Position numbers and translations under genes: made by a program. A stretch of 55,882 nt of DNA, taken from assembly GCA_022841375.1 (NCBI GenBank), contig JALHRQ010000019.1:1-55882 (forward strand), read 5' to 3'. Shown here piece by piece: positions 20,529 to 24,093 of the stretch. How positions within the stretch are numbered: position 1 is the first letter of the stretch; the number at the start of each line of letters is the position of its first letter. Under the pieces are notes generated by a model. It searched no databases and was not told the origin of the DNA. It saw nothing but the letters and a program-made list of their open reading frames with translations. The stretch comes from Burkholderiales bacterium. Lineage in GTDB: Bacteria; Pseudomonadota; Gammaproteobacteria; Burkholderiales; SG8-41.

Positions 20529-20695
20529 TGACAACTCCTGATCAGCAACATGACCCCGGTCGGGGCGCTCCCATTATCCCATCACAAACTTGTTGCCCTC
20601 TGTCTGCCCAATGCCACTAAAATGGGTGCGTGGCGATGGGCAAAAAAAATACGCGCACGCCGCACCCGTGTGTATCACGCATTGGAGGAGAAATT

Positions 20696-21658
20696 ATGCA
20701 TTGCACCATCCGTATCATGGCGGGCCTTATCGCAATCCTGCTGTCCGGCCTCGCCGCAGCCCAGCAATACCCCACCCGCCCGATCCGCGTCATCGTGCCC
20801 TTTCCTGCCGGCGGCAACGTCGACGTGTTCTCGCGCGTGCTGTTCCGCCAGGTTGAAACCGAAATCGGCACCACCTTCGTCATTGACAACCGCGGCGGCG
20901 CCAATGGCATCGTAGGCGCCGATACCGTGAAAAACGCAACCCCCGACGGCTACACGGTGATGAACACCTCCTTCGGTTTTGCCGTCAACCCGTCGATTCA
21001 CAAAAAAATGCCGTTCGACATCGTGCGCGACTTCACACCGATCACCAATGTCGCCACCGGTCTCGGCTATATGATGGTGGTGCATCCCAGCCTTCCGGTA
21101 AAAAATACCGCCGAATTACTGGAAGCGGCTAAAAAACAAACCTTGCGTTACAGCACTGCCGGCGTCGGCAACGGCCAGCATCTGGCCGGTGCGCTGCTCG
21201 CCAGCATGGCCAAGGTCGAGATGTTGCATGTGCCGTACAAAGGCGGCGGTCCGGCGATGACGGCGGTGGCCAGCGGTGAAGTACAGCTTCACTTCCCCGC
21301 AGCCTCGGTGGGACAGCCCATGCACAAGGCCGGGCGCGTGCGTGCCATCGCCTTCACCGGCGCCAAACGCCTGTCAACCATGCCGGAACTGCCCACCATC
21401 GGTGAAACCATTCCCGGCTATGTCGGCGATGCCGGCTGGCACGGCATGTTCGGGCCGGCGAAACTGCCCGCGCCAATTACACTCAAGCTGCAAAAAGCCG
21501 TACACAAGGCGCTGCAGGAACCGAAGATTCACGCCCACTTCGTCGACAACGGCTATGAACCCAACGGCGATCCGCCCGAGGTCTGGGCCAAGCAATATCG
21601 CGCGGACGTCAAACGTTTCGCCGAGATCGCCAAAGCAGCGGGAATAGAACCCCAGTAA
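20696..21658 (+). CDS. Bug/TctC binding protein (3)
   Basis: 320 aa, ATG 20696 preceded by GGAGGAG. Signal peptide through SGLAAAQQ. Pocket motif RVIVPFPAGGNVDVFSR, then VIDNRGGANGIVGADTVKNATPDGYTV. Divergent from the 2-hydroxyacid dehydrogenase, which suggests a hydroxy- or keto-acid ligand (inference). Downstream, a perfect 11-bp hairpin (21666-21695) without a U-tract separates it from the selenoprotein pair. Confidence 0.93.
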   Translation: MHCTIRIMAGLIAILLSGLAAAQQYPTRPIRVIVPFPAGGNVDVFSRVLFRQVETEIGTTFVIDNRGGANGIVGADTVKNATPDGYTVMNTSFGFAVNPSIHKKMPFDIVRDFTPITNVATGLGYMMVVHPSLPVKNTAELLEAAKKQTLRYSTAGVGNGQHLAGALLASMAKVEMLHVPYKGGGPAMTAVASGEVQLHFPAASVGQPMHKAGRVRAIAFTGAKRLSTMPELPTIGETIPGYVGDAGWHGMFGPAKLPAPITLKLQKAVHKALQEPKIHAHFVDNGYEPNGDPPEVWAKQYRADVKRFAEIAKAAGIEPQ

Positions 21659-21665
21659 GCCCTGT

Positions 21666-21695
21666 GCAGGCGGTCGTTTTCCGGCGACCGCCTGC
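21666..21695 (+). terminator. strong hairpin after Bug gene 3, possible terminator
   Basis: Perfect stem GCAGGCGGTCG/CGACCGCCTGC with an 8-nt loop TTTTCCGG. No T-tract follows, so termination is uncertain; it may protect the 3' end of the mRNA. Confidence 0.45.
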
Positions 21696-21734
21696 AACAC
21701 GTCCACGACAAAACATTCGCTTCATTGGCCGTCG

Positions 21735-21762
21735 TTGCAAGGCTGCGCAATGACGTTAGAAT
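21735..21762 (+). promoter_or_regulatory. candidate sigma-70 promoter of the selenoprotein operon
   Basis: TTGCAA (21735-21740), 16-nt spacer, TAGAAT (21757-21762), about 40 nt before the start codon. A small stem GATGC/GCATC follows in the leader. Prediction by eye only. Confidence 0.45.
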
Positions 21763-21803
21763 CATCGCAAGATGCTTTCAGGCATCCGCCTAACGGAGGT
21801 TCC

Positions 21804-22328
21804 ATGCGCCCCACCGCACGTCTTGCCGCACTCCTGTTCTCCGGTCTGATGTTGTCAGCAACGACGCTTACGGCCTCGGCCAACACCCTGCAACCGGTTA
21901 CCCCGCCGACGCCGATGCCCGCGTTCAAGATCCCGGGTCTGAACGGCACCAGCGGCAGCGACACCGACCTGCGCAACAAGGTCACGGTGATCCGCTTCTG
22001 GGCATCATGGTGAACAACCTGCGTCAGTGAAATGCCTTCCGTGCAGAGGGCACATAACGAACTGAAAAAAGACGGCATCCAGGTCATCACGGTGTCGATT
22101 GATGGCGTGGGCGAAGCCGCGGTCAAGCCGGTTTTTGCCCGCGGCGGATATACCATGCCCGCGCTGATCGACGCCAACATGGCGGTCGCCCGCGATTTCG
22201 GCGTGCGGGGCGTGCCGACAACGGTGGTGATCGACACCAAAGGCATGATCCGCGCCCGCACCACAGGGCATATCGATTTCGACAGCGCCGAACTTCGGAA
22301 TTACGCACGCAGCCTCAACCGCAAGTAG
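21804..22328 (+). CDS. exported TlpA/thioredoxin-like protein with UxxC active site (predicted selenoprotein)
   Basis: Thiol-disulfide oxidoreductase-like, 174 aa if the TGA at 22011-22013 is read as selenocysteine (residue 70). Start ATG 21804 with GGAGG; signal peptide through TLTASA. Before the TGA: DLRNKVTVIRFWASW. After it: TTCVSEMPSVQRAHNELKKD and, at residue 138, the cis-proline segment GVRGVPTTVVIDTKG. The family motif is WCxxC; here it reads W-U-T-T-C, with the TGA at the nucleophilic Cys and the resolving Cys73 intact. Sequence on both sides is conserved and in one frame, so this is not a frameshift. A 7-bp stem-loop lies 19 nt after the TGA. Probably exported and acting outside the cytoplasm; followed after 21 nt by a peroxiredoxin with the same peculiarity. 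A nonsense mutation is the alternative. Confidence 0.85.
22033..22052 (+). promoter_or_regulatory. candidate bacterial SECIS element, gene 1
   Basis: TGCCTTC (22033-22039), loop CGTGCA, GAGGGCA (22046-22052): 7 bp including one G-U pair, apical loop containing GU. It begins 19 nt after the TGA and the loop starts 26 nt after it, in the range expected for SelB-binding hairpins inside bacterial reading frames. Confidence 0.6.
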
Positions 22329-22349
22329 TACTTCCAACAGGAGACCGTG

Positions 22350-22925
22350 ATGACGACAAGTTCCAGATTGCTCCGCTGGCTGGCTGCAGCGCTGCTCGCT
22401 GCCGCCGCGCTGTTCGCCGCGCCGGCACAGGCCCAGACGCTGAAAGTGGGCGACAAGGCACCGGATTTTTCGGTGATCTCTTCAGCCGGCAAACCGGTCG
22501 CGCTGGCCGACTATCTCGGCAAGAAAAACGTCGTGCTGTTTTTCTACATTGCCGCATTTACCGACACCTGAACCAGCGAAATCGTGGCCTTCCAGCTTGA
22601 TCTTCCCAAGTTCGAGGCCGCCAACGCCCAGGTCCTGGGCGTCAGCGTCGATTTCAACAATGCCAACACTATTTTTGCAGAGCGGCTCGGCCTGCGTTTC
22701 CCGCTGCTCAGCGACACCCGCCGCATCATGACCCGCGAGTACGGGGTTCTCAACGACAATCCGGCGATGGCCAATGACGCCAAACGCATCGCCGGCTATC
22801 TGCGCGCCAAACGCTCCTGGTTCATCATCGACAAGACCGGCGTGATCCGTTACGCCAAGGTCGAAGACCCGCGCGGCATCATGCCCAACGATGAACTGAT
22901 CGAAGCGTTGCAGAAAATCCAGTAA
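22350..22925 (+). CDS. exported peroxiredoxin-like protein with TxxU active site (predicted selenoprotein)
   Basis: Peroxiredoxin of the AhpC/TSA-BCP type, 191 aa with the TGA at 22569-22571 as residue 74. Start ATG 22350 follows AGGAG; signal peptide MTTSSRLLRWLAAALL ... PAQA is cleaved before QTLKVGDKAPDFSVIS, the typical peroxiredoxin N-terminus. Before the TGA: NVVLFFYIAAFTDT; after it: TSEIVAFQLDLPKFEAANAQ. The family motif TxxC therefore reads T71-D-T-U74. The conserved Arg-containing strand is AKRSWFIIDKTGVIRYAK. No Cys occurs anywhere in the protein, so it would be a one-Sec enzyme needing an external reductant, and the upstream UxxC protein is the obvious candidate. Ends before a strong terminator. 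The alternative is a pseudogene, but the rest is fully conserved. Confidence 0.87.
22586..22619 (+). promoter_or_regulatory. candidate bacterial SECIS element, gene 2
   Basis: Lower stem GGCCTT/GAGGCC (22586-22591 with 22614-22619), small internal loop, upper stem AGCTTG/CAAGTT (22594-22599 with 22607-22612), apical loop ATCTTCC. It starts 14 nt after the TGA and the loop begins 28 nt after it. Confidence 0.6.
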
Positions 22926-22942
22926 AGCGTTGCCCGACAATA

Positions 22943-22974
22943 AGGGCAGTGCATCCCTGCACCGCCCTTTTTTT
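22943..22974 (+). terminator. intrinsic terminator of the selenoprotein operon
   Basis: AGGGC-A-GTGCA, loop TCCC, TGCAC-C-GCCCT (22943-22968): ten base pairs with one mismatch, followed by seven T. Lies 17 nt after the peroxiredoxin stop and also faces the convergent Bug gene. Confidence 0.92.
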
Positions 22975-22989
22975 CATACGGAGACCGAA

Positions 22990-23952
22990 TCAGTCGAGCT
23001 TCAGATTCAGCTTCTTGAGGATTTTTTCATTGCGCTGCATCTCATTGCGGATGTAGCCGTCGTAATCGGCCGGTGACATGGTGCCCTCCGAGAACCCCTG
23101 TTTGGTCAGTGTCGCGGCCGCCTCCGGCGCCTTCAGGGCTTTGGCGATTTCAGCCGAAAGTCGCTCCACGATGGGCCGCGGCGTGCCGGCACGAACCATC
23201 ACGCCGAACCAGTTCAGTGACTCAAACCCCGGCCAGCCTGATTCGGCAATGGTCGGCACCTCGGGCAGATTGGACGCGCGCTGTGCCGATGTCACCGCAA
23301 TGCCGCGCAGCCGCCCCGTCGGAATGTAATGCGAGCAATCCAGCACATTGCCAACCAGCAGCGTGATATGACCGCCGAGGATCGCCGTCGTGGCTGGCGC
23401 GCCGCCGCCGAACGGCACATTGACGATATCGATCTTGGCAATATCCTTGAACAGTTCGCCGGCGATGCGTCCGCCGCCGATGATGCTCGACACGCCCCAG
23501 GTGAGTTGTCCGGGCCGCGCCTTCGCCAGCGCCACCAGCTCTTTCATGTTCTTCACCGGCAGCGACGGATGCGCGCAGTAAATCAGCGGGTTGTAGACCA
23601 TCCGTGTCACGCCGTGAAAATCGCGCAGCGTGTCATAGGGCAGTTTGTTGTACGCAAACGGATTCACCGTAAAACTCGTCGCCATCACCAGCATGGTGTA
23701 GCCGTCGGCCGGCGCACGCGACACCACTTCCGTGGCAATCACCGTATTGGCGCCCGGCCGGTTTTCAATCACCAGATTCTGGCCCAGCGCCTTGGATACC
23801 GGAGGTGCAAACAGCCGCGCCATCGTGTCAGCGGCACCACCCGGCGGAAACGGCACGATCACGCGGATCGGTCGCGTCGGATATTCCTGGGCTGCAGCCT
23901 GAAAAGAAACCAGCGCAGCAACGGCGAGCAGCACCTTGGGCAACGACGTCAT
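22990..23952 (-). CDS. Bug/TctC binding protein (4)
   Basis: 320 aa from ATG 23952 (GGGAGG upstream). Signal peptide through SFQAAAQ. Pocket motif RVIVPFPPGGAADTMAR and IENRPGANTVIATEVVSRAPADG. Monocistronic, convergent with the selenoprotein operon. The AT-rich stretch 23953-24093 upstream probably carries its promoter. No enzyme gene is adjacent on the same strand, unlike several other copies here. Confidence 0.93.
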   Translation of the reverse strand: MTSLPKVLLAVAALVSFQAAAQEYPTRPIRVIVPFPPGGAADTMARLFAPPVSKALGQNLVIENRPGANTVIATEVVSRAPADGYTMLVMATSFTVNPFAYNKLPYDTLRDFHGVTRMVYNPLIYCAHPSLPVKNMKELVALAKARPGQLTWGVSSIIGGGRIAGELFKDIAKIDIVNVPFGGGAPATTAILGGHITLLVGNVLDCSHYIPTGRLRGIAVTSAQRASNLPEVPTIAESGWPGFESLNWFGVMVRAGTPRPIVERLSAEIAKALKAPEAAATLTKQGFSEGTMSPADYDGYIRNEMQRNEKILKKLNLKLD

Positions 23953-24093
23953 GTTTCTACCTCCCTGGTGAGAACGGATCAAGGTCCGGATTGTTATTCG
24001 CTACAAGATACCTGCCGCACACCCGGCGGCATAGCCATCCCGGGGGAACAATAAATTTATCTTTAAAAACAGATACTTACGAATATCTTGCGG

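Follow-up and report, generated by a model that had tools for sequence, protein, structure and literature searches.

A probable exported selenoprotein operon of a UxxC TlpA-like protein and a cysteine-less peroxiredoxin in Burkholderiales, with a possible role as a peroxide-reducing relay

Here, we present an analysis of two adjacent genes, tlpA and prx, in a stretch of 55,882 nucleotides (hereafter the window) from the genome of a Burkholderiales bacterium (assembly GCA_022841375.1, contig JALHRQ010000019.1). Judged from sequence, tlpA and prx almost certainly constitute a selenoprotein operon in which an in-frame UGA in each gene is decoded as selenocysteine (Sec). To the complete reading, i.e., that this is an exported selenoprotein operon whose two products would work as a relay, we assign a probability of roughly 60%. 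Taken separately, the proposal that the UxxC TlpA-like protein and the Sec-containing peroxiredoxin (Prx) form a peroxide-reducing relay is one that we favor slightly, and the observation that the pair is kept together in relatives suggests that the two proteins work as a peroxide-removing pair.

Results

Both genes lie on the forward strand. tlpA (21804-22328) extends from the ATG at 21804 to the TAG at 22326-22328 and encodes a TlpA/ResA-like, probably exported thiol-disulfide oxidoreductase of 174 aa, counting TGA as Sec; its TGA (22011-22013, +), codon 70, opens a UxxC motif (Sec70, Cys73). After an intergenic gap of 21 nt, prx (22350-22925) extends from the ATG at 22350 to the TAA at 22923-22925 and encodes a probably exported one-Sec Prx of 191 aa, again counting TGA as Sec, which belongs to the AhpC/TSA family, is predicted to have an AhpE-like fold and lacks Cys; its TGA (22569-22571, +), codon 74, is at the peroxidatic position of a TxxU motif. 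Read directly from the sequence, each frame contains this one TGA and is otherwise open to its TAG or TAA. Standard gene calling stops at TGA, and both genes are broken at their TGA in the stop-to-stop list of open reading frames of the window. The genome that carries the pair comprises 4.08 Mb in 66 contigs and is 99% complete.

A first-pass annotation of the locus had assigned a shared candidate promoter and a strong terminator to the two genes. The promoter stands as a weak candidate: a sigma-70-like element at 21735-21762 (+) has 9/12 matches, a consensus match only, and the scan returned two sites versus 0.4 expected. The terminator at 22949-22962 (+) is a candidate intrinsic terminator that the scan ranks as weak, with two sites found versus 1.7 expected in shuffled sequences, and the description "strong" was not upheld by it. 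Scanning 21500-23200 against Rfam up to an E value of 1 gave four matches, all far under the gathering scores. The pair is flanked on both sides by genes for TctC-like receptors (named by eye; 20630-21658 on the forward strand and 22990-23982 on the reverse strand). These flanks are kept in most of the genus-level relatives fetched and have no match at L059 and L063; because these two loci hold an intact tlpA-prx pair, we rejected the flanking genes as part of the operon unit.

When tlpA is read through its TGA, the motif is RFWASW-U-TTC. The product matches Pfam AhpC-TSA (79.6 bits, E = 2.4e-22) on both sides of the TGA, and also matches Redoxin and Thioredoxin_8. Its score to the NCBIfam family WAxxUGC_long, 74 of 300 bits, is far under the cut-off, as it is under the NCBIfam cut-offs generally, and the assignment to that family was rejected. 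UxxC is present in all 27 distinct TlpA sequences and, in the same 27/27, the Cys of this motif is the only one after residue 30. P138 is invariant in 20 rows and is likely the cis-Pro of the protein. The N-terminus is hydrophobic and ends in AQA-QT; that of Prx is hydrophobic as well and ends in ASA-NT. Based on these N-termini, both judged by eye, the two proteins are probably exported, in line with the signal peptides of the first-pass annotation.

Reading prx through its TGA gives the motif AAFTDT-U-TSE and a match to Pfam AhpC-TSA of 112.5 bits (cut-off 26; E = 1.6e-32), again on both sides of the TGA. The earlier claim that the only in-frame stops are two TGAs inside active-site motifs with homology on both sides is borne out. 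The NCBIfam families PrxU (52.4 of 270 bits) and Prx-SUH (32.5 of 298 bits) were rejected as assignments, the scores being far under both cut-offs. In a structure model with a pLDDT of 85.7, the best fold matches in a PDB search were Sulfolobus Bcp4 and the 1-Cys enzyme AhpE. To describe the residues of the family, we used 30 distinct Sec-Prx that are full length, have at least 170 residues and at least 50% identity, and are not cut by contig ends. L064 and L065, which both have Sec and have Ile at position -7 relative to it, are outside this set, L065 having a Cys near the C-terminus; loci L124-L142 were handled apart. Beyond residue 30, Cys is absent from 29 of the 30 and present only in L036/L063 (Cys78). 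In nine more Prx and eight more TlpA from other loci, which agree with this, any extra Cys is at least 52 residues before Sec, in the signal region, and four Prx of a sibling family have a single Cys at least 52 residues before Sec. By comparison, the Cys-containing homologues of the class have at least two Cys in the aligned part (29/29). The lack of a resolving Cys in the Sec-Prx argues that recycling depends on an outside reductant or partner. Judged from its residue content, and consistent with the best fold matches, the product of prx is predicted to be a one-Sec Prx in need of an outside reductant.

Among the active-site residues, Thr at -3 is kept in 30/30 Sec-Prx, and R155, which the alignment identifies as the probable catalytic Arg, is invariant in 23 rows. 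Position -7 is Ile in 28 and Val in two of the 30 Sec-Prx and Pro in none, versus Pro in all 29 class Cys homologues read. The four Prx of the sibling family have Ile, Val, Thr and Thr at this position, and a Sec-Prx of the window's genome without a signal peptide keeps the Pro (MPFAFTGGU). The Prx motif PxxxTxxU is described as highly conserved in PMC13188914, and a literature search on the motif PxxxTxxC together with selenocysteine found nothing. As a guess, the Pro at -7 may become dispensable once Sec is present.

Both TGAs are conserved in close relatives. Searching 74 genomes of the family at E ≤ 1e-50 gave 43 Prx matches, distributed over 42 genomes, and exactly one TGA is present in each of the 43; weaker matches are to other Prx, some with a TGA and some without. 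For TlpA, the same threshold gave 41 matches, from 40 genomes, with one TGA in 41/41, and seven further matches near 1e-31 to 1e-34 are without TGA. In 30 family loci fetched from among the 43 Prx matches, the catalytic codon is TGA in prx in 30/30 and in tlpA in the 27/27 that reach the position. The argument of the first-pass annotation that chance nonsense mutations are unlikely to hit these very codons gains from this conservation in the close relatives examined. The named close relatives, with Prx 68-96% identical, are metagenome-assembled genomes (MAGs), mostly labeled Burkholderiales or Betaproteobacteria; we take the labels Bordetella parapertussis (two) and Rhizobiaceae (one) to be wrong, as the Prx in question are 75-80% identical and lie among the others. 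Past the TGA, Prx has a median dN/dS of 0.18 and TlpA one of 0.23 (0.085 and 0.21, respectively, before the TGA; 14 sequences compared in 91 pairs, 13 being from the genus and one from a neighboring genus), and these low values support that the downstream part is still under selection as protein.

Farther out, Prx matches at E ≤ 1e-38 are present in 15 of 399 genomes sampled across the order, eleven of these belonging to the same family and four to a single other family. In the class-wide sample of 369 genomes, Prx matches at E ≤ 1e-25 were obtained in 95, counting the window's own genome. In the 29 best-scoring loci from the other genomes, the residue at the position of the Prx TGA is Cys in all 29, which argues that the TGA replaces the peroxidatic Cys; the alignment of the TGA with Cys homologues that the first-pass annotation had proposed as a check on Prx thus came out in its favor. 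The class match listed with a TGA (G310) also has Cys at the catalytic position. For tlpA, the Cys counterparts are a TGC at the position in L064, from a Deltaproteobacterium MAG, and the CxxC in the Cys-type TlpA of L118-L123. Searching 398 genomes of the phylum with a TlpA profile at E ≤ 1e-38 returned the window's own genome only.

The adjacency of the two genes is similarly conserved. For 40 of the 41 TlpA matches, tlpA and prx are on the same contig with tlpA first; in the exception, G011, each gene is located at the end of a different contig. Prx without a TlpA match occurs in two genomes, G013, where the contig ends inside tlpA, and G029, where the contig begins inside prx. In G043, the tlpA-prx pair occurs twice (G043:C114 and G043:C27), with a TGA in every gene of both copies. 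Within the genus, the adjacency counts for little because the outer flanks are conserved too. In the sibling family, a UxxC TlpA is upstream of Prx in all three loci, of four, that have enough upstream sequence.

Putative bacterial SECIS (bSECIS) hairpins follow both TGAs on the forward strand. In tlpA, hairpin 1 (22033-22052) has a 7-bp stem and a 6-nt loop, CGUGCA, that starts 26 nt after the UGA; in prx, hairpin 2 (22584-22621) has two stacked stems (8 + 5 bp) and a 9-nt loop, GAUCUUCCC, that starts 27 nt after the UGA. Both fit the bSECIS model given in Fig. 2 of PMC13188914 (loop of 3-9 nt with a G in the first two bases, 16-37 nt after the UGA, energy ≤ -7.5), with the G at loop position 2 in tlpA and 1 in prx and energies of -12.0 and -14.7 kcal/mol, respectively. 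These energies are unremarkable: with 325 in-frame positions of these genes as controls, folding was equally good at 57% (tlpA) and 30% (prx) of them; accordingly, folding energy, being uninformative alone, was rejected as proof of a SECIS element, and covariation was used instead. For the tlpA hairpin, 98.4% of cells are paired in 27 rows (26 distinct), with compensatory changes at two pairs, and pairing falls to 32-70% when the partner is slid. For the prx hairpin, 93.2% of cells are paired in 31 rows (25 distinct), with compensatory changes at three pairs, and slid versions are 15-59% paired; two of five measures for the prx stem, covarying pairs (158/500) and pair types (468/500), are not above shuffles. 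RNAalifold, run unaided, recovered the tlpA stem and a prx stem almost identical to the one described. A more stable hairpin that fits the model is found elsewhere in 5/28 tlpA rows, and the best prx hairpin is elsewhere in 1/31 rows (L065). Synonymous codon identity in prx is 0.87 versus 0.66 over the first 17 codons (p = 2e-4, relatedness ignored) and equally high (0.87) in a window 82 codons further on; in tlpA, it is 0.75 versus 0.66 over the first 17 codons, which is not significant (p = 0.11, relatedness ignored), and the best window for synonymous conservation begins at codon +9.

The genome encodes the complete Sec machinery. A tRNA-Sec gene at C3:51712-51802 scores 75.9 bits (cut-off 47) and was independently identified by ARAGORN with the anticodon TCA; the same family search gave a weak signal in 14/14 control genomes and passed the cut-off in only five. 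selB is at C3:53498-55381 (421.5 bits) and adjoins selA (577 bits), while selD (L086; 419 bits) is on C15 and itself carries an in-frame TGA, at its GGGUGC loop. Thus, selA, selB, selC and selD, for which the first-pass annotation had proposed a search, are all present, and its selenoprotein reading withstood the refutation that a lack of selB and selC would have meant. Across the family, 65 of the 74 genomes have a selB match at E ≤ 1e-80, including 38 of the 42 that carry Prx; among these 42, it was not found at this threshold in G019, G021, G060 and G061 (84, 74, 99 and 62% complete, respectively). For G060, which is 99% complete and has the TGA pair, candidate readings are a missing contig, a fragment or a recent loss.

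At least five genes of the window's genome have a TGA with homology across it, i.e., the pair, selD and two more AhpC/TSA genes. Sec formate dehydrogenase was not found among the 24 matches to TIGR01553 in this genome, all of which score under the cut-off and are free of in-frame stops; the usual betaproteobacterial selenoprotein thus seems to be absent from it. Side observations in the same genome are a Prx with an in-frame TGA, no obvious signal peptide and the motif FAFTGGU (L075; G000:C4:131379-131756), a Prx-like protein with an in-frame TGA and the motif YRGDWUxxC (L081; G000:C2:208384-208752), a thioredoxin-reductase-like gene between selC and selB (L017:10431-11339; 223.9 bits to TIGR01292, under the cut-off) and, beside selD on C15, an open reading frame that looks like a rhodanese-type tRNA 2-selenouridine synthase (named by eye).

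Discussion

We suggest the following model for the pair. The UGA at each catalytic position would be decoded by SelA, SelB, SelC and SelD, aided by the hairpin just downstream. Peroxide would oxidize the selenolate of Prx to a selenenic acid, which Prx itself could not resolve; most likely, the UxxC TlpA would then attack the oxidized Sec of Prx and thereby return it to the reduced state. TlpA in turn would regain its reduced state in the periplasm, where the DsbD of this genome may be the electron donor. The DsbD gene (C7:112952-113605) adjoins another, Cys-type TlpA and not the tlpA-prx operon; its presence argues that periplasmic reducing power is available, and a tie to the operon is our conjecture. 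In sum, the pair would be an extracytoplasmic relay that reduces peroxide by means of selenium. The proposal of the first-pass annotation that the UxxC protein is the reductant of Prx is in our view plausible, with indirect support from the Cys-less Prx, the conserved pairing and a second type of pair.

This second type was found at L118-L123 (G034, G032, G054, G051, G039 and G036, respectively) and has the reversed order, a Sec-Prx followed by a CxxC TlpA; all six genomes lack the pair of the window. The Sec-Prx of this type have the motif FTPTU, are 41-45% identical, have no Cys in the aligned part and have Val at position -7 in 6/6. All six members of the 41-45% identity class were fetched, and a Cys-type TlpA follows in 6/6. 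In the Deltaproteobacterium MAG L064, a Cys-type TlpA is just before the Sec-Prx and apparently overlaps it, the start codon having been chosen by the script. That the pairing recurs in the other order, and with a Cys or a Sec TlpA, argues for a functional link rather than mere inherited neighborhood.

The alternative that survives best, and that we nevertheless consider rather unlikely, is that the two proteins are separate, co-regulated selenoproteins: TlpA would act on other periplasmic substrates, as in cytochrome c maturation or metal or disulfide reduction, Prx would be recycled by glutathione or another thiol, and the operon would serve joint expression only. TlpA/ResA-like proteins have many substrates, and several Cys-type TlpA-like proteins are encoded in the window's genome, both of which fit with separate functions. 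However, the second pair with its opposite gene order, as well as the intact pair at L059 and L063, where the TctC-like flanks differ, speak against it. Considerably less probable is a flow in the reverse direction, in which Prx and peroxide would oxidize the UxxC protein and, through it, exported thiols, as in a relay for oxidative folding or signaling. A Cys-less Prx must pass its oxidation to a partner, and such a flow would begin with the same chemical step as the peroxide-reducing relay; however, TlpA/ResA-type proteins usually act as reductants.

Two further explanations concern the TGAs themselves, and both have a negligible probability. One is that the genes are decaying and that the TGAs arose as nonsense mutations or assembly errors. 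It is favored only by TGA being, as a rule, a stop codon, and was rejected because the same TGAs are present in dozens of separate assemblies, the sequence downstream is under purifying selection and the Sec machinery is complete. A genome-wide code change, with UGA specifying an amino acid other than Sec, would leave the frames open as well, but was rejected because tlpA ends in TGA in several relatives (e.g., L020, L023 and L025), arguing that the internal and the terminal TGA are read differently, because a tRNA-Sec with a TCA anticodon and SelB are present, and because each frame has a single TGA, at the catalytic position.

The two kinds of protein are already known selenoproteins, and what is new here is a variant and not a kind. 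In mycobacteria, the reductant of AhpE is mycothiol/mycoredoxin. The 1-Cys AhpE (PDB 1xvw, 4x0x and 4x1u) resembles the Prx of the window in fold (TM-score by target of ~0.9) and in having one redox center and an outside reductant; it differs in that it has a Cys in place of Sec and that its reductant is a different one. We take the domain family cd02966 to be TlpA-like. A UxxC thiol-disulfide isomerase-like selenoprotein of cd02966 is listed in Table 1 of PMC13188914 and, with four sequences, in Table 3 of PMC1088965; by its published description, it has the same kind of fold and the UxxC motif, whereas the tlpA studied here is consistently linked with a Sec-Prx gene in one operon in much of a bacterial family. 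The Sec-Prx PF00578 TxxU is listed as an experimentally verified selenoprotein in Table 1 of PMC13188914 and shares with the Prx of the window the AhpC/TSA fold, the peroxidatic Sec, the Thr at -3 and the invariant Arg; in contrast, the latter is probably exported, lacks Cys (29/30) and has replaced the Pro by Ile or Val (30/30). Known adjacent selenoprotein gene pairs with a Prx or Prx-like member have other partner families and come from sequence reads (ten, one and one), whereas tlpA-prx is found in dozens of genomes. A Prx-TlpA pair does not appear in the selenoprotein-operon section of the review PMC13188914, and neither the tlpA-prx operon nor the loss of the Pro in Prx was found in the literature searched, although work on selenoprotein neighborhoods may hold the pair.

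In Sec-decoding Betaproteobacteria described earlier, formate dehydrogenase is given as the only selenoprotein (PMC1794560). Against this background, we tentatively propose, at somewhat less than even odds, that tlpA and prx encode an extracytoplasmic relay that uses Sec in each of its two catalytic steps (the mature pair together having two Sec and one Cys), in which Prx does without both a resolving Cys and the active-site Pro that is conserved elsewhere, and that this relay helps to keep Sec decoding in betaproteobacteria that lack a Sec formate dehydrogenase. If the relay is real, it would provide a simple, testable case of why selenium is used twice in one short electron chain, and it would show which residues of a peroxiredoxin become dispensable after Cys has been replaced by Sec.
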